Origin: Ectocarpus siliculosus
Taxonomy: Eukaryota > Sar > Phaeophyceae > Ectocarpales > Ectocarpaceae
Direction of reading: 5' to 3'
DNA: 64,000 nucleotides
Assembly (NCBI GenBank): GCA_000310025.1
Contig: FN649755.1
Coordinates: 260,295 to 324,294 of the forward strand
The notes below the pieces were generated by a model that ran no database searches, was not told where the DNA came from, and was given only the letters and a program-made list of their open reading frames with translations. Both the position numbers and the translations under genes were made by a program. Positions 146 through 35,764 of this stretch are shown here, in pieces; positions within the stretch are counted from its first letter, which is position 1, and the number at the start of each line of letters is the position of its first letter.

Positions 146-3100
146 CTACAGCTTCTCCGGCAAATTCATCAACTTGCGCCGGTGGTACTGCAGACTGGCC
201 CTGCTAAGGGCCTTGGTTAGGAGGTCCGCGTGTTGCTCCGTTGTCGGAACGAACTTGACCGAAATATCCCCCGACCTAAACAATCCGCGGATAAAATGAA
301 ACCTCACGTCGATGTGTTTCGTGCGGCCTGAGCTGAGGGGGTTCTGCACCAACGCTATGGCCCCCAGGTTGTCCTCAAGGACCTGAATGCTGCTACCACT
401 GGTCTCTGGGGCAACAAACGAAAGCACAGCACGCACAAACAACGCTTCCTTGACGCCCTCCCCGGCAGCAATGTACTCGGCTTCCGTCGAAGACAAAGAC
501 ACGATGCTCTGTGTCTTGCTACCATGGCTGACTACGGTACCTCCAACCGTTGCTGCCAACCCTGATACCGAACGCCTATCCTCCGTGTCGGCGTAGCTAG
601 CGTCTACGTACACGGCAAGCCCTAACCCCGATCCCCGTTGGTAGGTGATGCCGAGGTCCCTCGTCTGTTTTAGGTAGCCGAGGATCTTCTGTATCGCGTC
701 CCAGTGCCTCTTCGCCGGGGCGTGGGCGTGGCGCGCTACCGCACGCACGGCGAACGATACGTCTGGACGCGAGAACGTCGACACCCACATCATGCTGCCG
801 ATGGCCTCCCTCACCGGCCACTCCCCTCCCTTCTCATCATCTCGCTTCGGTCCTAGGTCGGCACCGGGGGTAGCGGGGATGTGGGAGGTCGATTGCACAT
901 CAAAGCGTTTCACCATGCTGTCAATGTACGCGGTTTGGGAGATTCTAAGAGTCCCAGCCTCTACATCTCTCTCGATGGCACACCCGTCAAACCATTCACA
1001 CTCTCCAAGGTTTTTGGTGGGAAATTTCTTGTTGAGAGAAGCAAGCAACTCCTCACAATCCTCGTCAGACCCAGCCACCAAAATGTCATCCACATAGATC
1101 ACGATAATCATCACCACGACTTTGTCTACCATCTTGCGGAAAACACACGGGTCCGCTTTGCACTGTTCGAACCCGTTCTCGACTAGCGTATCAGCAGCGT
1201 GGCACCCCCACTGCCTACCGCTCTGCTTCAGACCGTAAATCGCACGCTCAGCCTTAACAATTTTATGCGATTTGTCCCCGCACCCAGCGGGGAGCTTCAG
1301 AAAAACCTCCTCGTCTAGCGTGGCGTGTGTGTACGCCTGTTTCACGTCCCAGTGATTGAGGTTCATGCCCTTCTCGTTTGCTACCGCAAGCATCAGCTTA
1401 ATGGATGCGGATGAGGGGCAAGGGGAAGACGAATGGAAAAAATCGACGTTCGGGATTTGCGAAAACCCCCTAGCAACCAGACGCGCTTTGAACTTGTCTA
1501 TCTTCCCTTCCTTGTTGGTCTTCCAACTAAAACACCACTTTGAGCTCACAGGCCTGCGCCCCTCTGGCGTGCCGTCTACGAATGAAAACGTCCCCGTGCC
1601 CAAGTGCCCTTCAAATTCTTCCCTCATGGCCTGTTCCCATCCCTCTCTGTACACAGACTTGGCAACACCGGCTACGGTCATGGGGGGGGGTTCTACATCA
1701 CTCGGACGCTTGCCTATGGGGGATTCGCTTAGCTCGTGGGACGCCAGAGCCGTCTCGAAGGCGTCTGGCGAGTTGAGCATGAGGACCACCGCGCCCAGCA
1801 GGAAGTCCTCCGCTTCTTGGCGCGCAGCGTGGGCCTCCTCGGCGCGCTCGAACAGCAACTCTCGCACCACCCTCGCCTCTAACCCCTCCGCCACGTGGAG
1901 GACCGCCGAGAGCACCCAGCGGGTAAACTCCTCCGTGCTGCTGACCGGAAGGCTCGCCACCGAGGCGAGCAGGGCTTCGGCACTTGTCGGCGACGGGGGC
2001 GACTCGTACCTCGGGTTTCTGCGGGGGTTCTCTCTGGTGCGGCGGCTGGTGAGTTCCGCCGGCTTGTCGAAGCGGGCGAGCCGCCGAGCCTCTGGCCCGC
2101 GGAGCGCCAGGAGATCCGTCTCGCTGTCGCTGTCGCTATCGCTGCCGCTGCCGCTGCCGCTGCCGCTGCCGCTGTTGAAGCCGCTGTTGAAGCCGCTGTC
2201 GCGGCCGCGGTTGCTGCCTCTGTCGCTGCCGCTGCCGCTGCCGCTACCGCTGCCTCCGCTACCGCGGCTGCTGCTGCTGCGGCGGTCGTCCTCGCCGCCG
2301 CCCACATCGGCCATGCCGGTCGACGTCGTAGATGGGGCGACGCTCGCGCCTTCCCTGCTCGAGGGGGCGCCATCGCCAGCGTCGCCTGCGCCCGACTCCT
2401 GGGGCGCGGGCGGCCCCGCGGGCCCCGGGGCTGCCGTCGTGCCAAGGTTGAAGCCTGGTCCTCCATCCACAGGTTCTCCCTCCGCCCTCCCTCCACCTTG
2501 GCTCGACGCGCCCTCCCCAACCTCGTCCTTCTCAGTCGCGAATTCCTCTTCCTCCTCTGCGATGGGAGGCAGCGACTGGGGCAGGGCGGTGGGGGCGGCG
2601 GGTACGGATTGCCAGGTGAAGTTGCGAGTTGTTATCGCTTGGCGTTTTTCGTTCAGGATGCGCACGCAATCACGGTTGGTGTTAATTCCCGAGCCGAGGT
2701 AAAAACACTTTTGGGCTTTCGGCTCGGACTTGTGTGTGCGCTTGACCTTGTATACGGCAGGTTTGAGGAACGGGTACGTCGCCCCCGGCGGGGGAGGGTG
2801 CCCGTGCCACATCTCGTACGGCGATTTCTTCTCTGGGTTGGATGTGGTGGAGGTGCAGTTCAGGGCGTTGCATGCCCAAGCTATGGCCTCGGCCAAAAGG
2901 GAGGGGTAGTTCGGTGCTCCGGGGTAAAGAGTTGGCGCTTGGATACGGGCGGCTAGTGCTGCATCCTTGATCAGACGCAGTGCTCTCTCAGCTACACCGT
3001 TGTATTCTGGGCTGTGTGCGGGGGTGAACTCCTGTTTGATGCAGTACTTCCGGCACACCTTGCCGAACTCTCCCTCAAAAAATTCTCCTCCATTGTCGGA

Positions 3101-4957
3101 TCTCACGACCATGACATCGGACGGGGCACCGTCTGCCCGGTTTTCTGCAAGATACCTCTCGAATGCCTCAGCGGCGTCTGATTTGTGCTTCAGGAAATAG
3201 ACACGGTTCCACCTTGTGTAATCATTCTTGACAATGAGAGTGTACCACTTCCCCCCCAAGCTCTGCACCCTAGCTTTTCCACTCAAATCCACGAAAACTC
3301 GCTGCAGTTTCTTAACTGCTCGGGTCGACGTCTTGTTGGGGATGGGCTTGGAAAGCCCCTTCGCCGTCGAGCACCCCAGGCACTCCCGGAGCTCGCCCAC
3401 CAGCGTCGTTCCCTGCTGCTTCGCCGTGGTCCTCAGCAGCACCTCGTGGGAGTGGCCGTGCGCGCAGTGGAAGTCGTTGATGTCAACGGGGGTGTTGGGC
3501 GCTTTCGCGCTACCAGGAGCAATTGCGGCATAGGCTTGTTCGGAGTGTTTGCGGAAACCGTTCTGAACGTACAGGTTACCGCATCGGGGGAAGTACACCG
3601 ACTTCCCCCCCCCTCTCTCCAATTCCAACTCGTGCTTATTGAGGGTTTTGGTTTCGAACCCGTCGTCGAAGAGGGAAGTGAGAGATACTAGGTTGTAATC
3701 TAGTCGGGGAACGTGTGCAACCCGTTTCAACAACAGGTCGGTTGTACCGTCGCGCGAGCTAAGGGTTACCGTCACGTCGCCATACCCTACAATAGGGAAG
3801 GTTTCTCCTGCGGCGACGCGCACACGTCGATCACACTCTTCGTAACGAACGAACCCATCTGAGTTCGCGAAAATGTGGGTGGTAGCGCCGGTATCGGCAA
3901 CATACCTCCCCCGCCTAGCCTGCTCTACACCCCCTCGACCAACGACTCTGTGACACTCGCCTGAGATGTCACGGACCACCAGCGCCCCTTCTGCCACGTC
4001 CAGTGCTATGGCGTCCGCAGACGCCCCCCCCGCCGGCACTCCCACGACGAGCACTGCCTCCTCGGTCGGGCACTTGCTCTTGTCGTGCCCGTAGCCTTTG
4101 CATGTCTCACATCGCACGGGCTTGCTCTCGGGGCAGTTGGCCACCTGGTGGCCCTTCTTGCCGCACCGGAAACAGCGACCGCGCATGCTACCCGCATCGT
4201 CGTCGCCGCCTCCGCCGCCGCCACCAGCCTTCGCGCCACCCCCTCTCCCCTTCTGGTTGCCGCCGCCGCCGCCGACGCCCTTGCGGCGGCCGCTGTTGCC
4301 GCGACCCGGCGCTCCTCCCCCGCCGCTACCATCGCTCGCGAGGAGAGCATGCTCCGCCCTACGCTGACCCTTCACAGCCTTCCTCCCCTCCGGGAGGCTC
4401 GCGTGCACCGTGCTCACGATCCCGACGATCTCGGCTCTATCCAGCGCCGTCGCTGTCTCCAACAGGAACTTCGCTTGTTGGTACTCGGGTGGGAGGGAAC
4501 CAACAAAGTGGGCGAGAACGAAGGGTTGTTCAGCATTGAGCCCCTTTTCGCGCAGGCGGGCATACAGCAGCTCGAGTGAGTAGAGGTGCTCGATGGGGTT
4601 GCTGTTGCTGTGTGTGGGGATTGCAAAGTCGAACATCTTCCGCATCAAGGCCTGTTTTGACCCCTGTGACTCTGGATCGTAGACCTTTTCCAGTTCCGCG
4701 AGGACCTCTTTCGCTGACGTACAGTTACTGATGATTGCTTTGTCAGCTTCTTTCACCACAGCAGTAGTGATAAAGTGGAACGCCTGAAGCCCTAGTTGGA
4801 CTTCTGCTCTCGTGTGCCCCCTACGGAGCAGTTCGGGGGTCGGCAAGTTTGGGTCGCCCACGGGGATACTGCTCTCTGCATCCCCTATAAACTGCCCGTC
4901 CAAGTCGATGGTCTTCGCAGCTTGGATGAACGATTTTCGCCACGAATCAAACCGTGG
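146..4957 (-). CDS. Copia Gag-Pol polyprotein (main part)
   Basis: Polyprotein of the retrotransposon, about 1585 residues counted from the TTG at 4903; the frame is open back to a TAG at 4958-4960. Numbering from 4903: Gag (UBN2-like) in the first ~170; two CCHC zinc knuckles at ~244-257 (CFRCGKKGHQVANC) and ~265-278; protease DTGATTH at ~337; GAG-pre-integrase His/Cys motif ~480-511; integrase acidic residues in VDLSG (~539), RSDNG (~603) and NGVAERA (~633-639); a Ser/Gly/Asp-rich linker ~870-930 coded by a CCGCTG hexamer-like repeat at 2120-2290; reverse transcriptase ~1080-1330 with YVDDILVAG near 1270; RNase H with VYVDASYAD, SSTEAEY and a final D in LEDN. It supplies reverse transcription and cDNA integration for the element. 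All catalytic motifs are present; the N-terminus is in another frame. Confidence 0.93.
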   Translation of the reverse strand, partial: PRFDSWRKSFIQAAKTIDLDGQFIGDAESSIPVGDPNLPTPELLRRGHTRAEVQLGLQAFHFITTAVVKEADKAIISNCTSAKEVLAELEKVYDPESQGSKQALMRKMFDFAIPTHSNSNPIEHLYSLELLYARLREKGLNAEQPFVLAHFVGSLPPEYQQAKFLLETATALDRAEIVGIVSTVHASLPEGRKAVKGQRRAEHALLASDGSGGGGAPGRGNSGRRKGVGGGGGNQKGRGGGAKAGGGGGGGDDDAGSMRGRCFRCGKKGHQVANCPESKPVRCETCKGYGHDKSKCPTEEAVLVVGVPAGGASADAIALDVAEGALVVRDISGECHRVVGRGGVEQARRGRYVADTGATTHIFANSDGFVRYEECDRRVRVAAGETFPIVGYGDVTVTLSSRDGTTDLLLKRVAHVPRLDYNLVSLTSLFDDGFETKTLNKHELELERGGGKSVYFPRCGNLYVQNGFRKHSEQAYAAIAPGSAKAPNTPVDINDFHCAHGHSHEVLLRTTAKQQGTTLVGELRECLGCSTAKGLSKPIPNKTSTRAVKKLQRVFVDLSGKARVQSLGGKWYTLIVKNDYTRWNRVYFLKHKSDAAEAFERYLAENRADGAPSDVMVVRSDNGGEFFEGEFGKVCRKYCIKQEFTPAHSPEYNGVAERALRLIKDAALAARIQAPTLYPGAPNYPSLLAEAIAWACNALNCTSTTSNPEKKSPYEMWHGHPPPPGATYPFLKPAVYKVKRTHKSEPKAQKCFYLGSGINTNRDCVRILNEKRQAITTRNFTWQSVPAAPTALPQSLPPIAEEEEEFATEKDEVGEGASSQGGGRAEGEPVDGGPGFNLGTTAAPGPAGPPAPQESGAGDAGDGAPSSREGASVAPSTTSTGMADVGGGEDDRRSSSSRGSGGSGSGSGSGSDRGSNRGRDSGFNSGFNSGSGSGSGSGSDSDSDSETDLLALRGPEARRLARFDKPAELTSRRTRENPRRNPRYESPPSPTSAEALLASVASLPVSSTEEFTRWVLSAVLHVAEGLEARVVRELLFERAEEAHAARQEAEDFLLGAVVLMLNSPDAFETALASHELSESPIGKRPSDVEPPPMTVAGVAKSVYREGWEQAMREEFEGHLGTGTFSFVDGTPEGRRPVSSKWCFSWKTNKEGKIDKFKARLVARGFSQIPNVDFFHSSSPCPSSASIKLMLAVANEKGMNLNHWDVKQAYTHATLDEEVFLKLPAGCGDKSHKIVKAERAIYGLKQSGRQWGCHAADTLVENGFEQCKADPCVFRKMVDKVVVMIIVIYVDDILVAGSDEDCEELLASLNKKFPTKNLGECEWFDGCAIERDVEAGTLRISQTAYIDSMVKRFDVQSTSHIPATPGADLGPKRDDEKGGEWPVREAIGSMMWVSTFSRPDVSFAVRAVARHAHAPAKRHWDAIQKILGYLKQTRDLGITYQRGSGLGLAVYVDASYADTEDRRSVSGLAATVGGTVVSHGSKTQSIVSLSSTEAEYIAAGEGVKEALFVRAVLSFVAPETSGSSIQVLEDNLGAIALVQNPLSSGRTKHIDVRFHFIRGLFRSGDISVKFVPTTEQHADLLTKALSRASLQYHRRKLMNLPEKL

Positions 4958-12526: not shown

Positions 12527-12661
12527 TTATGCACGAACCTCTTTTCGCAGAAGTTCCAGGTTGTTTCGAGTCTCAACCGTGTGTGGGTGGTTTTCCCCAA
12601 AGCGCTTCGTACGGATTGACAGGGCCCTCTCCAATAGTGGCAATGCCTCGGTGTACTTCTC
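12527..12661 (-). CDS. Terminal TPR exon with stop codon
   Basis: Starts [14 protein letters not shown] after GTCGACAG|, contains [20 protein letters not shown] and ends EVRA-stop (TAA, 12527-12529). This is the usual C-terminal repeat form of kinesin-light-chain-like proteins (HPxTxxTRNNLA). It fixes the 3' end and strand of the gene. The 3' UTR would fall in 11990-12526, which otherwise shows nothing. Confidence 0.75.
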   Translation of the reverse strand, partial: EKYTEALPLLERALSIRTKRFGENHPHTVETRNNLELLRKEVRA

Positions 12662-15600
12662 CTGTCGACGGTTGACATGCAGGAACGAGCAACAAAATCA
12701 AGTCGGCAACCCACATGCGCATGCGAAGACGTGGGCGGTGAAAATGCAGATCGATTGGTCCCAGCTTCGCAGTACATGCCATAGGTTGCGGCGACACCCA
12801 GAGCCAAGACCCCTATCGTCTATCGCAACACCCTTGGTATCCAGTCGAATGGTACAAACCTTAGCATCCTGTCGTGCAATGAGGCAGAATGGCCAGTTCG
12901 GTAAAAGTGGGAAATACAACCACTAGCCCAGTGCCTCATTTTGTACAGCTTGTGGCCGCTCGTAGAATGTCCCAGCTTCAGCGTATTGGTCGTGCATGGC
13001 TAGCAGTGGGCTACCTGAATTCTGCTCAACATGGACTACGAGAATTCCGGAAAAATCGAACGACTCTCGCTCAACAACCCCGCCCGGATGTTTAAGGGCA
13101 TTGCCACATTCTGGCGTTTGAACCCAACAACCTGGCACTGCGCATAATGTGGCTCAGCCTCAGTGTACTTGCCCCGGCCTGCAGTCGTTCACGGCGTGCC
13201 AGAGTTGGATGCAGACGTCACTCCAAGGGGGGTCTTATATCTGCGCAATACGATATCTGACCGGTTGTTGAGCGCCTGGGCGACATTTCAGGTGCTACAG
13301 ACACACACCGTTCCCTCGCCATGGCCTATAATCGCTCATGGAGTGGCTCGGTCTCGGCATACGTGTCATACTATGTAGTGAACACCCCGGCCAAGCGTTG
13401 ATGTTTAGTCAAAACGAGATCTCGACCTACAGCGGGAATGCCTCTTTTCAGGGCATCTAGACTCATTGCTTCGTTCTTACCTGCCGGTAGAACAACGCCG
13501 CCTGGTTGTTGAGGCCTGCAGCGACTTCCGGGTGGTCAGGGCCGTAAGCATTCTCATCAATAGCCAGTGACCGAATGTACAGAGGCTCCGCCTCCTCATA
13601 CTTCCCCTGGAATGTGACGGCAAACGAAAGAACGAAATCCATTTGGCTACGCTAAATGTGGGCAGAAACCGTAGACAACAACGCCGCCCAGTTGCTGGGC
13701 CGTGCTGCAAGATGTGGGTGGTCGGGCGTACTCTGCCCAATCACAATAGCTCGCAGTTAGAAACGGTGCGTCTTTTATAATCTGCCCTGCAAAGCAAGAC
13801 GTTGTTGCTTTTGAGGAAGGAGTTCCACCGACATCCAACACAAGTGAGCATCAACATGAGCTCTATTACGAGTGCCCAATAAATTTTGATGCTCCCTCAC
13901 CTGATTCTTCAACACCCCCGCCCGGTTGTTCAAAATTGTCGCAACGTTTGGATGATCCCTCCCCAACGATTTCTCCATGGTCTCCTGTGCCCTCTGGTAA
14001 AGCGGCTCAGCCTGGTCGTACTTGCCCTGTTTCGGTAACAGAGATAGGGTGCAAGTGGGTGGTCCACCAAAAACAAAAATCAGCACCGACCAATCGTGGA
14101 CCCTCGAAACTCACATGGATTCTGCGGACACAAAGGGCTTCTCTCCAATACGTAGCCTGTGACTGCCAATCAAGAAGCTTCGCTATAGACTAACGATTCA
14201 CCAACATATGTGGCCTTATCAAAGTTGCTGGGAATTTCAAATTATTGTTATGGCTCTCACCGTATCTCTCAACAATCCCGCCCAGTTGTTGAGGGCAGTA
14301 GCGACTTCCGGGTGGCCAGGACCGTAAACCTTCTCATGGATAGCCAGCGACCGAGTGTACACAGGCACAGCCTCCTCATACTTGCCCTAGGATGTGACGG
14401 GAAGGAGGCGAGATTCAATCCGTGACGCTATATGCAAAAGAGCTGGGTTGTCAAAGATGGTGTTGTCAAGGCGGAAAACATAATTGCGGACACACATACG
14501 TTCAGCAACCCCGCCCGGTTGTTGGTCGACTGGGCCATATTCGGGTGCTACGGCCCTGGCCCCTTCTCTCATGTTGACTCAGGACCGTTTAGGACGTGGC
14601 CCCGCCCCGTCGTGCCTACTCTGTTGCGATCACTAGAGAGTGGTTGTGAGGGAGTGGTCCACCAAAAAGCGAAATTTCTTTACCTACCATTGTTGGACCC
14701 CAGAATATCTCATTCCTGGGTGCTCCAAACGCAAGGCCTTCTTTCCGACAAGTGGCAAGTGACTGCTAAGAAAGTGAATTCGCCATGAACAATGGCTTGT
14801 CCAACAAGCGTAAACCGTACAACGGTTTCGCCTAAATTCAAGATTCATGATACGCATACCTCTCACCTGATCTCTCAAGAACTCCGCCCAGTTGTTGAGA
14901 CCTGAAGCGACTGCGGGGTGGTCAGCACCGTACACCTTCTCTTGGATAGCCAGCGACCGACCGTACAGAGGCTCCGCCTCCTCATACTTGCCCTGGAAAG
15001 AAAGAGCAAAGATTAATGTGATGACGTTGCAAGTCCGAAAAACCCAAGACACGCCCCTGCAGGGCTAGTCGAGCCGTGTGGCGGGGCCTGGGTGATCAAG
15101 GCCCAACGTGGAGCTCGAAGGTACAGAGGTCTTCATTGCTTCTCCCGTCAGGGGAACGAACACCGTCAAGGCAGTGTTGTCAAGGCAGAAAATAACATTG
15201 CGGACACACACGCTCAATAAGAGCTTTCCCCGGTTGTTGAGCGACTGGGCCATATTCGGGTGCTCCTGTCCCGGCGCCTTCTCTCTGTTGACCTTGGACT
15301 GTTCATAACGTGGCCCAGTCACGTCGTGCCAACTGTGTTCACGATCATCCGAGAGTTAGTGTGAGGGAGTGGTCCACCACAACGCGAAATTTCTTCACCG
15401 GCCATCGATAGACCCTAGAGTATCTCATATCTGAGTACTCCGAACGCAAGGCCTTTTGTCTGGCAAGTGGCCTGTGACTGCTCATAGACTGACTTCGCCA
15501 TGAACCATCGCTTCACCAACTAGTGTGAACGACAACATTTTCGGTGAATTTCAAAATTTGTGATGGTACTCACCTGATGTCTCAAGAACTGCGCCCAGTT

Positions 15601-18600
15601 ATTGAGACCTGTAGCGACGTCGGGGTGGTCAGGACCACAATTCTTCTCAAGGATAGTCAGCGACCGAACGTACAGAGACCCCGCCTCGTCATACTTGCCC
15701 TGGAATGTGACGGAAAGGAAAGAGCAGAGATTCATTTGATGACATTGCAAATGCGAAGAACCCAAGACACACCCCTGCTGGCTAGTCGAGCCGTGTGGCG
15801 CCCGCTGGGTGGTCAAGGCCCAACGTGTAGCTCGAAGGTACAGAAGATGTTCTCTGGAATGCTTCCCCCGTCAGGGGAACGAACGCCGTCAAGGCAGTCT
15901 TGTCAACGCGGAAAATGATATTGCGGATAACAACTAACAGCCCCACCGGGTTGTTGATCTACTGGGCCATATTCGGGTGCTCGTGCCCTGGCGCCTTCTC
16001 TCATGTCGACGTGGGACCGCTCATAGCGTGGCCCGGCCTTGCCGTACGCATGCTGTTGACGCTTATCCGAGAGTTAGTGTGAGGGAGTGGTCCACCACAA
16101 AGCGAAATTTCTTCACCGACCATTGTGGGACTACTCCGAACGCAAGGCCTTCGTTCCGACAAGAACCCTGTGACAGCTCATAGACTGACTTCGCCAAAAA
16201 CCATCGCTTAACGAACAAGTGTGAACCATACAACGTCTCCAGGGAAATTGACAAAATTGTGATGGCTCTCACCTGCCGGCACAACAACGCCGCCAAGTTG
16301 TTGAGGCATACAGCGACTACCCGGTGGTCAGGACCATACACCTTCTCACTGATGGCCAGCGACCGGACGTACAGCGGCTCTGCCTTGTCATACTCGCCCT
16401 GGAGAAAGTGACGAGAAAGGAAAAAGAGCAAAGGTTCATTTGATGACATGGTTAGTATGGACAACAACCCTGCCGGGCTAGTTTCGCCGTGTGGCGGGAG
16501 CTGGGTGGTCAAGGCCCAACGTGTAGCTCGAAGATACAAAGGATCTTCTCTGGAATGCTTCCCCCGTCACCGGAACAAAAACCGCCAAGGCAGAGTCAAG
16601 ACGGAAAATTATCTTACAGACGCACACACCCTCAACAACCACGCCCGGGTACTGAGCGACTGATCCACATGTCGGTGCTACTGCCGTAGAGCCTTCTACC
16701 ATATTGCCTGTGATGCTCGGCCAGGTCATACTTAACGTGTGAATCATCATAGAGCTGGTGGAACGGAGGATTCCCCCGATATGGAAAATTCTCTACCGAC
16801 CAAATGTCGATCCCAGAAATACTCACATCTGGGTACTCCGGACGCACGGTCTTCTCTTCTAGACGTAGTCTGTAACTACTTATACAGTAGTTTCGCTTTG
16901 AACCAACGATTCCCCCAACAAGTGTGGATGCTACGGAATTTCTCATGGCTCAAGTTAAAAATTCCTCATGGCTCTTACCTGACTGTTCAAGAACTCTGCC
17001 CAGTTGTTGAGGCCGACAACGACGTCCGGGTGGTCAGGACCGTAAACCTTCTCACGGAGAGCCAGCGACCGAACGTACAGAGGCTCGGCCTCCTCATACC
17101 TGCCCTGAATGCGGCAGGAATGGCAAGAGCGAGATTCATTCGGTGGCGATGTAAATGCGACGAAACCCACAGCCAACACCCCCGTCGGGTTGGCGAGCCG
17201 AGCGTCAATAGGTGGGTCGTCGGGGCGCCACGCTGTTGTCTGCAATCTCAATGGCTCAACGGTAATGATGAACGCCTCGGCATAATACCTCTGGACGCGG
17301 AAAGAACAGCGTCTTGGCAGTGTCGGTAAAGGCCAGAAACGCTCATAGTAGATTAATACACCTCATCAACCCCGCCCGGCTGTTGAGCGACTGGGCCAAA
17401 TCGGCGTGCGCCTGACCTTTTGTAGCGACTTCTATCATATTGACTAAGACTGGGGGAAAAACTTGGCCTCGTCGTACCTACCTTGGTATTAATTCTCAGG
17501 TAGTGGGTGCAACGGAGTGGTCCACCATGATCGAAAGGTTCTTCACTGACCGAACGTGGACCCTAGAAATTCTCGGATCTGGGTTATCCGGACGCAGGGG
17601 GTACGCTGGTATACCCATCCCTTGACTGCTCATAGAGTACCTTCGCCATGAGCTTACGATTCTCCAACAAGTGTTCACCCCACAAGAAAAATTATGACAA
17701 ATTCGAAAAATTCGATCGCGTTCACCTGACTCCTCAACAACTCCGCCCAGTTGTTGAGGCCTATAGCGACCTCCGGGTGGTCAGGACCTAATAACTTCTC
17801 ACACATGGCCATCGACCGAACGTGCAGAGGCTCGGCCTTCCGATACTCTCCCTGGAATGTGACAGGAAAGAAAAGCACGAAATTCGTTTTGGTGACGCTG
17901 TATGTGCGAAGACGCCATAAGACAACAACCCCGTCGGGCTAATTGAGCCGTGTGGCGCGAGCTGGGTGGTCAGGGCACAACGCCCCCTCTCCAATTTCAA
18001 TAGCTCCAAGTTACAAAGGATCCCCGTCTTGCCCTGGATGGGGAAATAAATGCCAGAGTGATCATTCGGCAAAACCTCATTGCTGACGACCACACGCTCA
18101 ACAAACCGCGCCCGGTGGTTGAGCGACTGGACCACACACGGGTGCTCCCGCCCGAAGCTCTCATCCATAATTAGTGTGACCGTTCTGTAAGTATTACGGC
18201 CTTGCACAACCCTGCTTACAATCACCAGGGAGTGGTCCAACAAAAAGCGAAAGTTCTTCACCCATTTGTTGACTCATATTTGGGTTCTCTACACGCAGGG
18301 TCTTCTCTCCTATACATGTACACGCCACATGCGACCGCTCATAGGTACCTTCGCCATGACTAACCATTCACCAACACATGTAGACAATGCAAAAGAAAAT
18401 GCTGGGACATTCAACTGTTCTGATGCCTCTCACTTGACTCTCCAAGACAAGCGCCAAGTTGTTGAGGCTTGTAGCGATTTCCGGATGGTCAGCACCGTAC
18501 GCTTTCTCACGGATAGCCAGCGACCGAACGTACAGAGGCTCGGCCTCCTCATACTTGCCCTGGAATGTGACGCGAAAGGTGAGAAAGAAATTTTTGTGGT

Positions 18601-21600
18601 GACGCTGTATGTGCGAAGGAACTATGGCCAATATCCCTGCCCGGTAGTTGAGCCGTGTTGCACGAGCTGGGTGGTCAGGTCCCAACGTGTTTCTCTCCAA
18701 TCTCAATAATTCGAAGGTACAGAGGATCAGCCTTGGGATGAGTGCCCTGGAAGGGGAAAGATAAGCGCCATGGAAGCGTGGTCAAGGCGAGAAACGTTCA
18801 CTGCAGACGCGCGCACGCTGAGCAACCCCACCTGGTTGTTGAGCGATTGGGTAACGTCGTGGTCCTCCTGACCTATTACAGCGCCTTTTGCCATTGACTT
18901 GTGACGGAATTCAAAGCGCGTCGTCATCATCGCATCATGTTAGTAATCATCAGAGAATTGGCGTGGAATGGTCCACCAAAAAGCGATTTGTCACCGACCG
19001 TTTGTGGATCCCCGAAATACGCATATCTGGGTTCTCCGGACGCAGAGCCTTCCTTCATACACATGCCTGTGACTGTTTATAGATCGGCTATGCCATGTGG
19101 TATCGATTGACACACGAGTGGGACCTACGAATGGTGCACGAAGATAACAAAAAAAAAGTGATGGCTCTTGCCTGACTCCTCAAGAACCCCGCCCTGTTGT
19201 TGAGGCCTATAGCGACTTTCGGGTGGTCAGGACCGTACACTTTCTCATCGATAGCCAGCGAGCGAACGCACAGAGTCTCTGCCTCCTCATACTTGCCCTG
19301 GAACGTCGCGGGAAAGAACAGAGAACAATATTTCGGTGACGCGGATCATATGCTCGAAGAGGCCGTCGACCACAACCCCGACGAGTTGGTGAGCCGTGTG
19401 GGAAGAGCGGGATGGTCGTGGTCGAAAGCGGGTTATTTCCAGTTTCACTAGTTCAACGGTACAGGGGATCCGACTCGGCATGCCTGCCTGTTTTCCGGGG
19501 GGGCTTGTGAAGCCACCCAAAAAATTGTGAATGGAGGTTTCGGCCGAACCCAATCGAGGCTTGGTGTCTAGCACTCACTCCCCGATGTGGTATTGGGGCC
19601 GAAACAGCGAGGACAAGCACAAGCTTGCTTTCCGAGGAAGCACTGTAACGTATGGCGGTAAGGCGCATGTGCTTAGTTGGGTCTAGATCGGGTCGTGGGC
19701 AAATTTAGAGATGCGTGAGAGGAGAGGTTTGGTGCGGCACGCTCATAAAGCATGAAGGGCGAGCAGCACCTTACACCACAGGAGCGGTAGACAGGCACCA
19801 GCAATAGCGCATGGTTCACATGCATACGATGTAGTTGCCTCAAACCCAACCCAATTAACACGCGAGAGCAGAATTGGGCGGAAGAGACAACGTTACATTA
19901 TGATGTGCCTTTCTCAGCGAGTATGAAGAAGGAGAGAGGAAGCAGACGATGCGTACACGTGGTGGATGAGAGGTAGAGCGAGACGGCTCGAGATGGTCAG
20001 GCCTGAGAGAGGCCTAAGCCCTGGAGCTAAATGAGAGGCGGTGCTGGCGAAATCGTGTTGGCTTGTACGTCATGCTGCTAGACTCTTCCGCAAACCGTAC
20101 GTGAGGTGTCCCTGCTCGTCCCGGTTGGGCATCCCCGCCGCAGAATTGTTGGCCAACTCCTGAGCTTTTGAGAATACCTTGATCGTCCGGACGCCGCGAT
20201 TAGTCGGCGGGTGCGTGCTACCAGTTCAAGGTTGCGCTGGAAGTATGCCGAGTTCCGTATATTCTGATAAATGATCATAGCAACAACCAATACCTCCAAA
20301 AGGGTCCTTACAACCGAGTTTACTGTTGGCAGCATGCTGGTATTTTGCTCATCTGCAAGAGGTTGGGTTAGTTTTAGGCTCTGACAGTAAAAAAGCATCA
20401 CCCACGACTGCGGTATGCTCCTCGGCAACAACAAATGACTATTGATCTGGCCCTGATCATAAACCAGATATTGACCACAGCAACGAATGCCGCCGTCTCC
20501 AGGCCAAGACTCACAAGATGATTCCCCGCCAAGCAAAATGTTTCGGCGAATTCTGAAACGTGTAGCGGTTGAATCGAAACGCGTACGCCTCACCTGTTTA
20601 TCCAGAACAGTGGCGAGTCTTGACCTGGCCTCGTTTTCGCGGTCCAATGCCCATCTCGATTCCTTGCTGTCGTGGTCCTCAACCTCCCGTACTTCGTTCT
20701 CAGCATCCGTAAGTGCCTGGAAGGTGAACGGACCACAAACCGTAACCACGTTATACGACACGGAAATATGAATGTAATTATTGTTGCTTCGTTGAGGGTC
20801 GCTGGGTTCTTCAAGTAAAACACGTCGGCTGTGTGCGCTGCTGGGCTTGGGAATCGTCGCAGTTTGCAGCTGGCCGCCAGCTGTGGGCTGATCCTGTTGC
20901 CTGTATTTTTATGATAAGCTTGAATCGCTCTTTGATGACGCCGTGTTTCACTGAGCCCACTCCACAAGAATCACTTCCATGTTGTGGATGTACGACTATT
21001 GAAGACTGCTCCAACACAAACCAATGTGCAAGCACACGACAAGACCTCAACTGCATCCCCCACAGCTGTACCTGTCTCTGGCTCTTCTCGGCCAGATCGT
21101 ACTCTCCAGCAGCTAGCTGTAGGTCCGGTAGAACGTACCCAGTTCCACGCCAGTTCTCCCCAGCAAGGTGCAGCATCTCCTTCGTAACCTTGGCGGACAA
21201 AGTCTCGAACAGGTCTTCACAGCGCATATCCGTAGTGACGTTGAGATCCCGCGCCCACTCGTACACTGCGTGTTGGCCGCCCTTCAATGCAAAGAACTCG
21301 CGGAGGTGCAGTTGAATTTCGCATAGGTGCTCGTTCACGACGGGGTTCAGCTTCACATCCCGATACCCGCTAGGCATCCAGTCAGACTTGAAGCCGTTCT
21401 TAATCAGCAGAACCTGTTGCTGCATGACACAAGGGTAGCAGAAAATAGGATGCACCATGGATTGAACGTCGTGGACACGTTTCAAGGAATGATCGCTTGC
21501 TGATCTTCGCAAATATCAAGTCTTGTTCCGTGCTCGGGGAAGAACGCAATGGTAGTAAGGGGATCAAGCTGCTAATCTCTCATCGTTCTCGGGGAAGAAC

Positions 21601-23285
21601 GCAAAGGGAGTGTGGGGATCAAGCTGCTAATCTCTCATCTATGGGAGGTGACCAAGAAATATAGTGTCGATCTCCAACGACATGTGGCGTTGTTGAGCTG
21701 ATGCTTTGGGTGCAATATCCCGCCGCGACTTTGTCTGAAAAATGATCATCTTTCACGCAGGTGCATGTGGATGGGAACCGCCTGGTAGATCCCGCCGCGA
21801 TGTGTGTGGTGTAAATGGAGCGAGAGCAGCCACTCCTCGAGGATCGGAGTGGATTTGTAACGGTAGTCCTATCGGGCATCGAGGAAAATATAGGTCAATT
21901 CTTGCCAACTGAACGGGAGAACTTTACCTCTGCCATTGGTAAAAAGATCAGGGTAGAACAAGAAAATCAAAATCACGAGCAACCCAAAGAGATGTCGAGT
22001 AACCCTAAGCGTCACGGTGCATGTCAACGATCGCTACTATTGTGCACACAACGAAGCAACACAAAGAGGCCCTCGGGGGTTTCCGAAGTATTCTCAAGTT
22101 GTTATTGTTGTCACAAAAAAAGCCGTTCAGAGTTCTCTGCCCAGTGTCTTCATCGGTCCGTACTGATCAAACGCTTGATCGCTCGATTTTCGTGGTCACC
22201 GACCAATTAACCCAAAAATATATTTATTCAAAAACAATGGGCCACAAGGGCCCGGGTGCCATTGCAAACAACGACGGATAGCCTCGGGGCCCCCGCTCCC
22301 TTCTACACGCTATGTGGGGGAGAAATGAAACTGGAAGGCAGCATCACGGGCCAGAGAGAGAGAGAGAGAGGTACATCCCCTAGTTCAATCTTGGTACGCC
22401 ACAGAGAAAGAGAAAGGACCACCCGGGAAAGAAACGAAAAAGACAAAAGCAATAGAAGTAGACGAAAAAGCAAATGAGAGAAAGGGCGCTAGCGAACAAA
22501 CACAATCAGGACCACCAGCGACGAGCAAAGGCATGCCATCACTCGCGAGGGGTTGATTCAATGGTGCCATCACGGCGGGGAGGGGGGGGGGACTAGGCAA
22601 GGAGTTGAACTCGGGCAATATCGCTTCACTCGGTCTGCCTGTTCATTTAGTTTCAAATCAAAGAGCGAGCAAACATGTACGGCACGACTTCCAGAACAAT
22701 TGCGGGTTTCCGCCAAAATCTCCATGTCCTACTCACCGTGGGCAACTCCATGATAGCCAAGTACGCCTCTTTCAGGGCCTCCGGTGTGGTGCAGATCACA
22801 GTCACTCTAGCTATGTCAGCAACCTTTCGGACGTCCCCATCACAGAACCTGCTAGCCTTCCGTCGCGTGCTTTCCCGTGACTTGACGTCCACGAATTGAA
22901 CCTCGTATTTGCTCATGTCATGCGCAACGTTCATGACGAGCTCGTCCAAATGCGCCTTTGCAAGCTCAGCGTCCGCAAGATAGAACTGTAGCTGATTCTC
23001 AAGCTGCTCGTCCTCACCGCAGTCCTGTGGATCAAATACCTTGGGCTGGAAGACGCCCGTCGACGGAACCGGGGCGATGGTGCGAAGGCAATCAAGCCCT
23101 CCAGTCTTGCTGAGCTCGTAGTACAAATCGTCGTACGCTGCTTGAAACTGAAGTACCGTCTGGACTTGAAGGTACTTGAGGAGATTCACTTTGGCGTCTA
23201 GACTAGTAGACGATGTTTCACGTTCACGTGAAGTCTTCAGCTCCGCCTCCAGACGGAGAAGATCATTGATATCCACGGCGACCAT
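12527..23285 (-). CDS. RelA/SpoT-like domain + TPR array protein (14 exons, reconstructed)
   Basis: Exons in transcript order: 22737-23285, 21072-21413, 20594-20716, 19172-19297, 18434-18559, 17726-17851, 16979-17104, 16273-16398, 15574-15699, 14867-14992, 14261-14386, 13901-14026, 13481-13606, 12527-12661. Every junction is phase 0, acceptors end in AG, donors are GTGAG-like (one GC), and the joined frame of about 802 residues has no stop before the TAA at 12527-12529. Residues 1-297 contain a RelA/SpoT-like nucleotidyltransferase fold; the rest is about a dozen TPRs of kinesin-light-chain type (DHPDVATxLNN pattern), ending in a repeat with [15 protein letters not shown] chose the ATG at 23285; an upstream exon cannot be excluded because a CAG precedes it. 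TPRs bind proteins; the N-domain family makes or breaks alarmone-like nucleotides. A sensor-effector role is inferred. No NB-ARC domain is visible. Confidence 0.72.
12690..13400 (-). pseudogene. Decayed TPR exons between the last two live exons
   Basis: Three relics on the minus strand. About 13060-13173 reads [14 protein letters not shown] then [12 protein letters not shown], with the acceptor AG changed to GG and a few codons lost. About 13240-13370 reads [10 protein letters not shown], then a stop and a frame shift. About 12700-12860 keeps only a faint TPR outline ending in HVLRSW. They are probably exons that dropped out of the gene. Confidence 0.6.
13481..19297 (-). repeat. Array of ten intact 126-bp TPR exons
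   Basis: Each exon encodes exactly 42 residues ([10 protein letters not shown]...RSLAI.EK.YGPDHP... LNN...). Coordinates are in the gene entry. Nine exons are one subtype, spaced 606-780 bp apart (mostly near 700-745). The tenth (13901-14026, with [17 protein letters not shown]) is a second subtype. Typical acceptor is CACATTCCAG|GGCAAG and donor CAG|GTGAG. Variation between copies clusters at the solvent-facing positions around residues 20-24 and 33-41. The exon unit equals one TPR and is phase-symmetric, so exons can be added or lost without a frame change. Confidence 0.85.
13660..13786 (-). pseudogene. Dead TPR exon with stops but intact acceptor
   Basis: It keeps the acceptor TTTGCAG|GGC, the overall length and the DHPHLAA and NWAALLS parts of a TPR, but has two in-frame stops. 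It lies in the intron between the live exons 13481-13606 and 13901-14026. Confidence 0.6.
14500..19480 (-). pseudogene. Relic TPR exons of three further subtypes in the introns
   Basis: Between successive live exons the same set of decayed TPR-like exons recurs in the same order. Subtype B is at about 14500-14621, 15215-15333, 15930-16052, 16640-16760, 17365-17490, 18090-18215, 18805-18930 (remnants such as [11 protein letters not shown]). Subtype C is at about 14660-14790, 15370-15510, 16085-16200, 16775-16890, 17518-17650, 18236-18360, 18970-19090 (remnant [13 protein letters not shown]). Subtype D is at about 15070-15150, 15780-15850, 16470-16560, 17180-17300, 17940-18035, 18650-18750, 19380-19480 (remnant [14 protein letters not shown]). 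Each has stops or shifts. Together with the live exon they outline an ancestral four-exon cassette of ~700 bp in tandem. Confidence 0.65.
20594..20716 (-). CDS. Exon 3: atypical helical (TPR-like) exon
   Basis: A 123-bp exon (41 residues, [15 protein letters not shown]...), one codon shorter than the TPR exons and flanked by TTCCAG|G and CAG|GTGAGG. It ends in LATVLDKQ like the TPR exons end in ...SQ, so it is probably a diverged TPR. It is strongly charged and could form a coiled coil linking the enzyme-like domain to the array. Confidence 0.6.
20815..20915. repeat. Dispersed ~100-bp repeat, copy 1 (in an intron)
   Basis: Matches 40635-40735: both hold ACGTC-GCTGTGTG, GAGCTTGGGAA-like sequence, a CAGCTG..CCAGCTGTGGG pair and a TTTTAT end. 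Copy 2 lies just past the stop of the glycosyltransferase gene. No coding capacity. Confidence 0.55.
21072..21413 (-). CDS. Exon 2: second half of the RelA/SpoT-like domain
   Basis: The 114 residues begin VLLIKNGFK. Key family signatures are SGYRDVKLN (equivalent to the GYxSLH region of RelA, ~198-206 of the whole protein) and [10 protein letters not shown] (~214-223), where the Glu matches the conserved catalytic E of the E-I-Q motif, followed by [10 protein letters not shown]. The acceptor is CAACAG|GTT after a pyrimidine-rich tract; the donor is GACAG|GTACAG. The exon ends with [12 protein letters not shown], the first helix of a TPR-like unit, so domain and array are fused inside one exon. 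Confidence 0.72.
22737..23285 (-). CDS. Exon 1: first half of the RelA/SpoT-like domain
   Basis: The 183 residues begin [11 protein letters not shown] helical region (~10-130) precedes a stretch [12 protein letters not shown] (~134-145) resembling the R-x-K-x3-S-x3-K substrate-binding pattern of RelA synthetase domains. Then comes [11 protein letters not shown] (~155-165), whose Asp matches the metal-binding D of the family (D-I-x-x-R-V). The exon ends ...MELPT with donor ACG|GTGAGTAGG, phase 0. The following intron (21414-22736) carries GA-rich repeats near 22360-22470 and no other exon I can support. Confidence 0.68.
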
Positions 23286-33300: not shown

Positions 33301-35764
33301 TGCTCGTGTGCGACCAACAAGACACCGAGCGTCCTGTTTTTGGGTCGCCTGCAGAGGGCATGTGTATAATCGCACGCCAGTGGCTGCAGTTTGAGAATGT
33401 CGTCGGCCAAAGGCCTCTCTCTGGCATGCGTTGTGGACTGACCAAGCTCGGCGCAACCAGAAAAAACAAGGCAACGTCCAAACAAAGTCAAAATCTCAAC
33501 ACACTTCCGTTCATGTGTACAGGCCGTGTGCAATCAAAACTGGAGAATACGCTCTGTTTCTGGGACGCGAGCAGAGCATATGTGTATGGTCACACTCCAT
33601 TGGCTGCAGTTTGTGGATGTCATCGGCCTAAAGCCTTCCTCTGGCATGCGGGTTTGACTGGTAGCGGGTGACACACGGAGCAAACACGCGGTGTAACAAG
33701 AAAAAAGTCCAAAAAGTCAACACGAATGGTGGTCGAGAAGATCATGTTGTGCGGGGTCGAGAACCCTCACTCCGCGCAAAGGGGATAATCGCACGTTGTG
33801 TTAAATTGGTCAAGCACCCTCGACGCAGTTCCGCCGTTCTTACAACTGTCTCTGGAAGGGACAGCACCAGAAAATAAATTAAGTCATACGCAGCTGTCAT
33901 CCGTACGCAAGGAAGTAAGCACAAGATGCCGAACACCCTTAGCAGGATGCAGCGCACCCTTCATGCCACTCGCCGAATACCTCACGGCGCTTCGTGCTTG
34001 GTGATGTGAGAGCCTGGTCCGGTGAGAACCTGGCGTGCTCCGTCCCGGCTTTGTAGGGATGCGACGGTCAATGGTCTAACGACTACGGCATGCACGACTA
34101 TGAGTACACCCCCACACACACACACAAATCCAATCCGGAGAAAATCACTGCCCAAGGCTCGGCCAAATTTGTTTTTCCCCAAACAACAGAACAGACCGAC
34201 GACATTCAATTTCATGCGAGAAGTCAACAGCAACACCAGCAGGCAGACGGCCTGCCTCCATTCATGCTTCCCTTTCAAGGCAGCAGTGTGACGTAAGCAA
34301 CCTGTGATGAACCTATCCAGAGCAACCATCCAGAGCAACCATCCCGAGACCTCACACAACCGTAGACGGCGCTCACGCTCTTGGAGGGTTCTCTCAGTGC
34401 CTGAGCGATCGTCAGCACGTTTGGGCGGGAAGACGTGTAGTCCTATTCTTCTTCTCGTTGTTGAGCAGTCAGCTGGACCCGCCCAACCGAAAAAAAAAAC
34501 GCTTGGTTACCCGCGGTGCCGCACGGATGGCTGTCTACCTACGGCGGGCAGGTCGCACAGGCTCGGCCCTTACCGATTTTCATAGCTGACCCCGCGGTGT
34601 GAGTGGCGGTTTTCTTCTGTGCTCCCCCTGCGGGATTGAATCAACGGCGGGCGTGTATACATGTGCGCGCGATCTCCGACTGTTGTGTCTCTCCATTACC
34701 TCGACAACTCCAGGAGTTGGGGTAAAGCATCTCCGATGATGTTCGGGCACAAATTCCTGTGTAGCACGGTCATCTGTTCTCGGAAAACGACCGAACCGGT
34801 GTCATGAAGAGTGTCCTATTTTTTTTCTTCGGCAGAAGGCAACAGATGCTCTATGGGTGCTCTACCGGTCTAGGTTGGGTCGAAAAGGAGGGATAATTTC
34901 GAGGTATTCAGACCATCACTTGGCCCCCCTGTATTGCGTTGGAACAGGCCGATACTGTAGTTCGAGCAATTTTTCCCTCCTGGAAAGAAGGGGAAAGGTC
35001 GTGTTTTGCGAACCGTGGCTCATTTCAATAGCAATTTTGTCGTCTGGAGTCTGTGATAAACTATTGCACGGGCACGCTAGCAAGGGAGGAAGACGTACAT
35101 CAGCAAATATCTCGTCGAAGATGGTACTTTGTTGTGGCCTGCCACGAAATCAAGGCAAGGAATCAGCGTCGGAAAACACAATTCCAGGGAGAAAACGTTT
35201 CAGAGAGGTTAGCGTTCGTCCAGATGTTGCCTGGAGGACATGCGCGTGGACACCAGATAGAACCAGCAACACTTTGGTGTTTGAGACACAGGTAGTCCTT
35301 GACTATACAGCTGGCAAACGAACAACCGGTTTGGGGTTGGATTTCCTACTTTCGCTGGTAGAACTGTGCACACAGCATGGCCGGGAACGTTGGTGACGAG
35401 GGTGATTCGCCAAACTTGTTGTTCGGTTTCATGAGTACGATTCCAATCACGGTTGGTTGCGCCAGATTCAATGGATAAGCAACCAGATGCCTGTTTCTCC
35501 ACGAGTTTTGCGGCGATTCAAGAAGAATTATTTTGGCCAGCGCCTACAGAGTACTGTTCTCGTGTGCTACGAGTGATTCAAGCATCTCCAACCCACTACG
35601 TACAAGGGTATTCTAACAACTATTACTGTGTGACCGACGGGTGGGTGTCCCCGAGAACGAATGGACAAGAGCTGCAATGAATCGCAGGATGTTAGCTAAT
35701 AACGGCTGCGGCTTGCAGTGGTCCGAAGGCTGTGGCCTTGTTGGCATCGACATAGAGCACCCAC
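27330..35764. other. Long gene-poor stretch
   Basis: No gene I can support. Contents noted: CAG repeat at 32276-32300, a T-run at 31388-31402, a GGGTTGG short repeat at 32075-32105, a TTTCACG hairpin-like pair at 31855-31905, and a direct duplication near 33.3-33.7 kb. Frames of 100-180 residues occur at 30754-31143, 33108-33533 and 34857-35396, without domains, and are not called. Confidence 0.4.
33308..33662. repeat. Two direct copies of a ~135-bp segment
   Basis: 33308-33442 and 33526-33662 align along their length (GTGTGC, CTCTGTTT/CCTGTTTTTGGG, GGCTGCAGTTTG, GTCATCGGCC, CTCTGGCATGCG) with about 75-80 percent agreement by eye. Function unknown. Confidence 0.6.

Follow-up and report, generated by a model that had tools for sequence, protein, structure and literature searches.

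A predicted Tas1-like RelA/SpoT-fold domain joined to a tetratricopeptide-repeat exon array in a candidate receptor family of brown algae

We analysed a 64,000-nucleotide stretch of the Ectocarpus siliculosus genome (assembly GCA_000310025.1, contig FN649755.1, positions 260,295 to 324,294; hereafter the window), in which a minus-strand gene at 23285-12527 is predicted to join a RelA/SpoT-fold domain to an array of tetratricopeptide repeats (TPRs). Fourteen exons with 13 junctions, all in phase 0, form one open frame of 804 amino acids. The RelA/SpoT-fold domain is encoded by two exons and is followed by a 41-codon exon, N3, and then by eleven TPR exons, the first ten of which (19297 to 13481) measure 126 nt each. 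Judged from sequence, this is a real gene that belongs to a multi-copy family, and its exon layout is a gene model. The exons and the region of the array are as follows (all on the minus strand).

22737..23285, minus: exon N1, 183 codons; N-terminal region and first half of the RelA/Tas1-like domain with a 14-residue motif; ATG directly after CAG; start matches P0123, a gene model of another Ectocarpus
21072..21419, minus: exon N2, 116 codons; second half of the RelA/Tas1-like domain, with SGYRDVK, CEIQLHL and QHAVYEW
20594..20716, minus: exon N3, 41 codons, ALTDAENE...LDKQ; linker preceding the TPR array
19172..19297, minus: TPR exon 1, 42 codons, GC donor
18434..18559, minus: TPR exon 2
17726..17851, minus: TPR exon 3
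16979..17104, minus: TPR exon 4
16273..16398, minus: TPR exon 5
15574..15699, minus: TPR exon 6
14867..14992, minus: TPR exon 7
14261..14386, minus: TPR exon 8
13901..14026, minus: TPR exon 9
13481..13606, minus: TPR exon 10
12527..12661, minus: terminal TPR exon, 44 codons and stop
13607..19171, minus: tandem array region, live exons and introns with decayed TPR relics
18909-18811, 18740-18623, 18189-18097, 18028-17918, 17453-17361, 15328-15218 and 14568-14497, minus: examples of the relics

The span, the strand and the 14-residue and CEIQLHL motifs in the first two exons had been recognised in an initial annotation of this DNA and were borne out by reading the sequence, as were its phase-0 junctions and its count of eleven TPR exons, the final one containing the stop. 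The direct join that it drew between the second exon and the TPR array (21072 to 19297) is probably not real, for N3 (20716-20594) intervenes in P0123 and in paralogs; tblastn recovered it at 7 of the 16 other loci, in one case partially. The 14 junctions counted at the time become 13. The start of N2 most likely lies at 21419 (QQVLLIK...) and not at 21413 as first drawn, because P0123 reads ...KQQVLRVKNG and the paralogs agree. P0123, which is a gene prediction of 894 amino acids and not a transcript, is co-linear with the window gene across N1, N2, N3 and the first TPR exons and has the same terminal exon; the two differ by 90 gap positions, and the insertions resemble intron or dead-exon sequence absorbed by the model. 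A chance open frame was ruled out by the TPR_12 match of the spliced protein (E=1.5e-135, Pfam), which is far past chance, by the paralogs with TPR exons and by fused models elsewhere. At the 5′ end, the ATG directly follows CAG or TAG in 12 of the 16 N1-bearing loci, as though an intron ended at the start codon; an upstream exon is possible, since the locus on contig C10 and the proteins P0014/P0015 have VYGGF without ATG at the start of N1.

Searching the whole assembly (189 Mb, 492 contigs) revealed at least 17 loci that match N1, N2 or both; N1 is present in 16 of them and the pair in 15, a lower bound given that loci were counted from the best candidates. TPR exons follow the N exons on the same strand in all 16 other loci examined. 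The public E. siliculosus protein P0156 begins with the N1 sequence of the C25 locus and is named "kinesin light chain-like"; we rejected that identity, as the name describes the TPRs only. The initial annotation had suggested looking for the same fusion in other brown algae, and fused models were indeed found in six genera, namely several Ectocarpus, Pylaiella, Hapterophycus, Laminaria, Ascophyllum and Sphacelaria, among the matches listed (the best 120 of 131 in one protein search, which scored only those 8000 candidates that had most words in common, and 52 of 52 in another). In one Pylaiella littoralis model, P0135, the RelA-TPR part is preceded by a sequence like IMP dehydrogenase, an enzyme of purine metabolism (precomputed PF00478 match); this is perhaps a merged gene model.

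In a tree of 36 hand-picked rows, the window gene groups with P0123, its sister, and with a row from Ectocarpus sp. 4. One clade holds the C16 locus, another Ectocarpus row, Ascophyllum and Sphacelaria, and the other holds the rest, with Laminaria. The main split of the family thus predates the brown algal orders compared. P0163, which matches the N-domain at E=2.7e-17 (29% identity) and continues into TPR_12 without a PF04607 match, gives a hint that the RelA-TPR layout may be older still; it sits on a long branch, as does P0029, and their join in the tree may be false. A protein search from P0163 returned only itself and one near-copy.

The initial annotation had placed a RelA/SpoT synthetase fold in exons 1 and 2, and profile comparisons establish this fold, at the level of sequence, as significant over the catalytic core. 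We aligned 13 of the 17 loci (alignment A1), omitting C29, which by eye is like C33, and three loci that are broken or partial (C24, C458 and C15), and compared the resulting profile with 177,635 PDB sequences. Tas1 (9.2e-6), RelP/YwaC (0.0013) and RelQ/YjbM (0.0031) took ranks 1-3, Tas1 thus being the closest PDB relative, and rank 4 was a tyrosine-tRNA ligase at E=0.061. The nearest profile relatives of the algal domain found outside algae are phage-type: P0164, one locus obtained straight from A1, and 11 more loci, one of these 11 on the same contig. A profile of 10 of the 11 phage-contig loci together with P0164 (A6) matched Tas1 at 2.8e-18 and then GTP pyrophosphokinases. Aligned with each other by hhalign, A1 and A6 gave a probability of 99.4%, E=9.4e-22 and a score of 139.9 (30 column-shuffled controls reached at most 16.5, and the reversed control 15.8), with the qualification that the phage set had been collected by motif and seeded from relatives of the RelA-TPR family.

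The phage-type proteins themselves (L049 and L051-L061, all from IMG/VR contigs, and P0164) have a RelA/Tas1-like domain, and P0164 also has GH108. A pattern search of genome contigs for bacterial relatives yielded 67 pattern matches and no confirmed relative. The NCBIfam XopAD/skwp model matches 8 of the 13 A1 members (best 4.5e-6) and the window gene at 0.0098, near the end of the model, which suggests that the XopAD type III effector family may also have a RelA-like domain. PHROG 7625 matches 4 of the 13 members.

Several results obtained with single sequences weigh, like the way in which the phage set was gathered, against the fold assignment and what we build on it. The N-domain of the window gene, taken alone, has no PF04607 match in Pfam, and its best PDB match, Tas1, is at E=0.9. 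Six of the 13 A1 members match PF04607 at E<=5 (best 5.6e-4) and none reaches the cut-off; of seven further proteins three match, the best being P0046 at 2.7e-4 with 21.6 of the 27 bits required. P0029, P0161, P0163 and P0164 gave no match to this model, and no algal N-domain scanned passes the curated cut-off. Even the A6 loci are split, with 4 of 10 passing, 4 of 10 matching below the cut-off and 2 of 10 without a match. Pfam, NCBIfam, PADLOC and PHROGs were likewise weak on single members, the relation being clear only by profiles. We read the failure at the Pfam cut-off as a limit of sensitivity, and the fold claim rests on the profiles: in the PF04607 search proposed with the initial annotation no single algal sequence scanned reached the cut-off, but the comparison of A1 with A6 is significant. 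Run on the whole assembly, the PF04607 model finds only two other places, and Pfam annotation therefore misses the RelA-TPR family.

Conservation of the active site was assessed in a wider alignment (A3, 94 hand-picked rows of the 120 matches listed in the protein search). The columns that map on FaRel2 K66, S70, K74, D90, Y128, E145 and Q147 (positions as given in the available part of PMC11782079) have K in 70/75, S in 71/76, K in 73/76, D in 74/79, Y in 54/72, E in 49/68 and Q in 48/64 rows, and their equivalents are invariant or nearly so in A1. The catalytic D, the acceptor-stacking Y, the E/Q pair and the K/S/K of the G-loop are thus all kept as a family pattern. Among the A3 rows that cover the Y, E and Q columns, about a quarter differ there, probably in part due to fragments running into introns, and the ATP-contacting arginines of FaRel2, R64 and R95, are not at their usual positions; both observations count against an active enzyme. 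There is no R two before the G-loop K, and R95 is shifted from D+5 to D+3, where R is found in 75/80 rows. Tas1 departs at both arginines in the identical way (letters of PDB 6ox6). Since Tas1 also lacks R64 and R95 at the usual places, pyrophosphotransferase activity of the N-domain is plausible without being a given, and the departures common to both point to a subclass that is Tas1-like rather than RelA- or CapRel-like. Defining this subclass by R at D+3 together with the lack of an R two residues ahead of the G-loop K is our own proposal.

A catalytically dead RelA-like domain that senses nucleotides or RNA, or on which the TPRs oligomerise, would account for the two arginines missing from their usual positions and for the failure of every algal member scanned at the Pfam cut-off. 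We nevertheless consider it unlikely, for K135, R142, K143, D157, R160, Y202, R203, K206, E217, Q219 and H233 are invariant in the 13 aligned paralogs, and both arginine departures are shared by Tas1, described as a (pp)pApp maker in the available part of PMC11782079.

The TPR exons have been multiplied in tandem. Live exons are spaced 699-747 bp apart for the first six and then 606, 360, 420 and 945 bp; intron identity is 61-83% among the units that start at 19297 to 14386 (18 pairs) but 39-48% in the 6 pairs involving the last two. Between the live exons lie decayed ones, of which a few match at E<1e-8 and several contain stops or frame breaks (the list extends to E=1, and the weak matches in it are due to chance). 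Variation was measured in 138 strict 42-codon exons from 17 RelA-TPR loci, sampled in 10-kb pieces and hence not all exons. At the canonical groove positions, which we take to be TPR consensus 2, 5, 9, 12, 13, 33 and 34, mean entropy was 2.82 compared with 1.80 over all sites (permutation P=0.00125), and the ten such exons of the window gene alone showed enrichment at P=0.013. Groove sites 41, 40, 37 and 30 rank 1, 2, 4 and 6 in variability, and 20, 19 and 33 rank 12, 19 and 20. In the window gene, the nonsynonymous rate over the overall synonymous rate (pN over pS) was 1.2-2.0 at sites 17, 40, 20, 30, 11, 41, 37, 27 and 31, with values of 1.5-1.8 at groove sites 20, 30, 37, 40 and 41. For whole TPR exons, pN/pS was 0.64 in the window gene and 0.50 over all loci, where the best sites reach about 1. 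Compared with five paralogs, N2 gave 0.25-0.45 and N1 0.42-0.64; over all pairs of 14 loci the values were 0.37 for N2 and 0.53 for N1, and N1 is therefore no more constrained than the TPR exons.

On the other side of the scale, two groove sites, 19 and 33, lack variability, and the non-groove sites 17, 27, 31 and 11 are highly variable too, site 17 being the highest in the window gene. The pN/pS values were obtained between repeats and between paralogs rather than between alleles, with no per-site test and with exons of one locus that are non-independent, and the loci on C24, C458 and C15 look broken. Those broken paralogs, the dead TPR exons in the introns and the GC donor would also be expected of a decaying locus whose protein is not made and whose open frame is a remnant of recent duplication. 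This we regard as very unlikely: fourteen exons are open in one frame, N2 is constrained relative to the five paralogs, and a co-linear model, P0123, exists as the sister sequence in another Ectocarpus.

The initial annotation had likened the gene to the NB-ARC-TPR candidate pathogen receptors of brown algae, and this likeness holds for the one-repeat, 126-nt, phase-0 TPR exons and for related exon-intron stretches at one NB-ARC locus. The assembly contains 27 NB-ARC matches, none of them on the contig of the window. One match, L050 (6 kb), comprises an NB-ARC frame followed by four strict TPR exons of the same strand, size and phase, which we take as one gene on the basis of this arrangement. 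By blastn, its TPR region aligns with the broken C24 locus over 668 bp (73.8%, E=2e-103) and with the window gene over 555 bp (67%, E=4.5e-36), in both cases across exon and intron. As these alignments join exons and introns, the RelA-TPR and NB-ARC-TPR families draw on related exons, judged from one NB-ARC locus. NB-ARC was not among 25 of the 28 Pfam families listed for the spliced window protein, and neither NACHT nor NB-ARC was found between the RelA domain and the repeats, where the window model and P0123 have only the 41-codon N3.

Comparison with known systems indicates a combination of two known kinds, the new element being a RelA domain placed directly on a TPR exon array, without NB-ARC or NACHT. 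Brown algal NB-ARC-TPR genes have the 42-codon phase-0 TPR exons in common with the window gene, which has a RelA-like domain in place of NB-ARC. Alternative splicing is reported for the NB-ARC-TPR and ROCO genes of brown algae. ROCO genes of brown algae also have one-repeat exons, and exon shuffling is described for ROCO and NB-TPR genes in the available part of PMC11378527, which cites Zambounis 2012 and Teng 2023. Tas1, a type VI effector of P. aeruginosa (PDB 6ox6), is the best solved relative by profile and shares the arginine departures, but it is a secreted bacterial effector, no TPR array is reported in the matched chain, and catalysis is established for Tas1 only; according to the same portion of PMC11782079 as above, it makes (pp)pApp and depletes ATP. 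That portion also describes CapRel and other toxSAS proteins, which have a toxSYNTH-type domain; CapRel controls its own in cis through a sensor, which in this bacterial protein is a pseudo-zinc-finger antitoxin domain, whereas the algal genes have TPRs. Fungal NOD-like receptors (NLRs) with N-terminal RelA_SpoT joined to NACHT and WD40 are described in the accessible text of PMC4986451 and PMC12258605. Like the algal genes, they have RelA_SpoT at the N-terminus of a repeat-bearing eukaryotic receptor candidate; they differ in having a nucleotide-oligomerisation domain (NOD; 14, 82%, T-NACHT in Sordariales in that text), none of which was found in the algal genes, and the latter have one TPR per exon. 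The "new layout" claimed in the initial annotation thus stands with respect to the missing NOD and the TPR exon array, and falls with respect to RelA_SpoT, already known in fungal NLRs. The literature search found no description of RelA-TPR in brown algae, with Zambounis 2012 and Teng 2023 outside its reach, and the available part of PMC3689799 has no passage with the whole word RelA.

RSH4 with TPRs is reported in green algae (available part of PMC6881373). It resembles the algal family here in being a RelA/SpoT-fold enzyme with C-terminal TPRs, and that part of the source mentions neither a one-repeat exon array nor a gene family. The precedent favours a housekeeping or stress alarmone synthetase, regulated in nutrient or stress signalling by TPR partners such as a chaperone, the ribosome or the cytoskeleton, with no pathogen recognition; tandem duplication would then have enlarged the array neutrally. 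Signalling within the cell is a common role of TPR scaffolds, the array has arisen by tandem duplication and includes dead exons, and overall the TPR exons have pN/pS below 1. RSH4 belongs to the long, plastid-type RelA/SpoT homologues (RSH), and long RSH proteins (RelA/SpoT/RSH1-4) have HD hydrolase and/or TGS and ACT domains; HD, TGS and ACT are all absent from 25 of the 28 Pfam families listed for the spliced protein. The family of at least 17 loci, the broken copies, the groove variation and the TPR likeness to an NB-ARC locus fit a receptor family better, and we hold the housekeeping explanation to be rather unlikely.

Our preferred reading, to which we give an even chance, is that the gene encodes a one-chain receptor in which TPRs control a Tas1-like pyrophosphotransferase, an immune sensor-effector. 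Fold, active-site positions, family, related TPR exons and groove variation come from the sequence; from there we infer that the enzyme is active and autoinhibited, what its substrate and ligand would be, and that it serves immunity. The eleven TPRs of the C-terminal array, 42 residues each, would bind a protein ligand, foreign or damaged-self, via a diversifying groove, and the N-terminal Tas1-like RelA/SpoT-fold domain would be kept silent until the TPRs bind. Once released, the domain would use ATP as pyrophosphate donor, and the product could be an adenosine- or guanosine-based alarmone, with ATP depletion as for Tas1, or a pyrophosphorylated tRNA end. Growth would then stop or the infected cell would die. 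A variant in which the RelA-like enzyme targets bacteria, the algal alarmone disturbing prokaryotic neighbours or symbionts, follows what Dyrka et al. proposed for RelA_SpoT in fungal NLRs (available part of PMC4986451). It seems highly improbable here, as no secretion signal was evident at the N-terminus when judged by eye, with no predictor run, and the one-repeat-exon TPR array resembles candidate intracellular receptors.

Two further features of the window may be recorded. A 1603-residue frame at 149-4957 (minus strand) with RVT_2, Pol_BBD, rve and Retrotran_gag_2 corresponds to a copia-type long terminal repeat retrotransposon. At 35756-37777 (plus strand), a 674-residue frame of FNIP repeats (13 stretches, E=3.5e-98) represents a second repeat protein.

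Pathogen recognition in brown algae, and what the candidate receptors trigger, are largely unknown; in the available part of a study of infection in kelp, what connects recognition with defence is called "virtually unknown" (PMC7317505). The RelA-TPR family would place a concrete enzyme on the output side, with relatives in bacteria that produce toxic alarmones or inactivate tRNA. The domain is small and open to assay, point mutants can serve as controls, and RelA-TPR genes can be compared with NB-ARC-TPR genes that have related TPR exons. More tentatively, and somewhat short of an even chance, we propose that brown algae may have a second receptor system that dispenses with a NOD switch: exon-shuffled TPR sensors would sit directly on a Tas1-type (pp)pApp-making or tRNA-targeting toxin domain, recognition by a single protein would trigger death by alarmone or ATP depletion, and TPR exons would be traded with NB-ARC-TPR genes. 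With the RelA-TPR family, toxSAS-type effectors, known in bacterial conflict and suspected in fungal NLRs, would extend to a multicellular alga.

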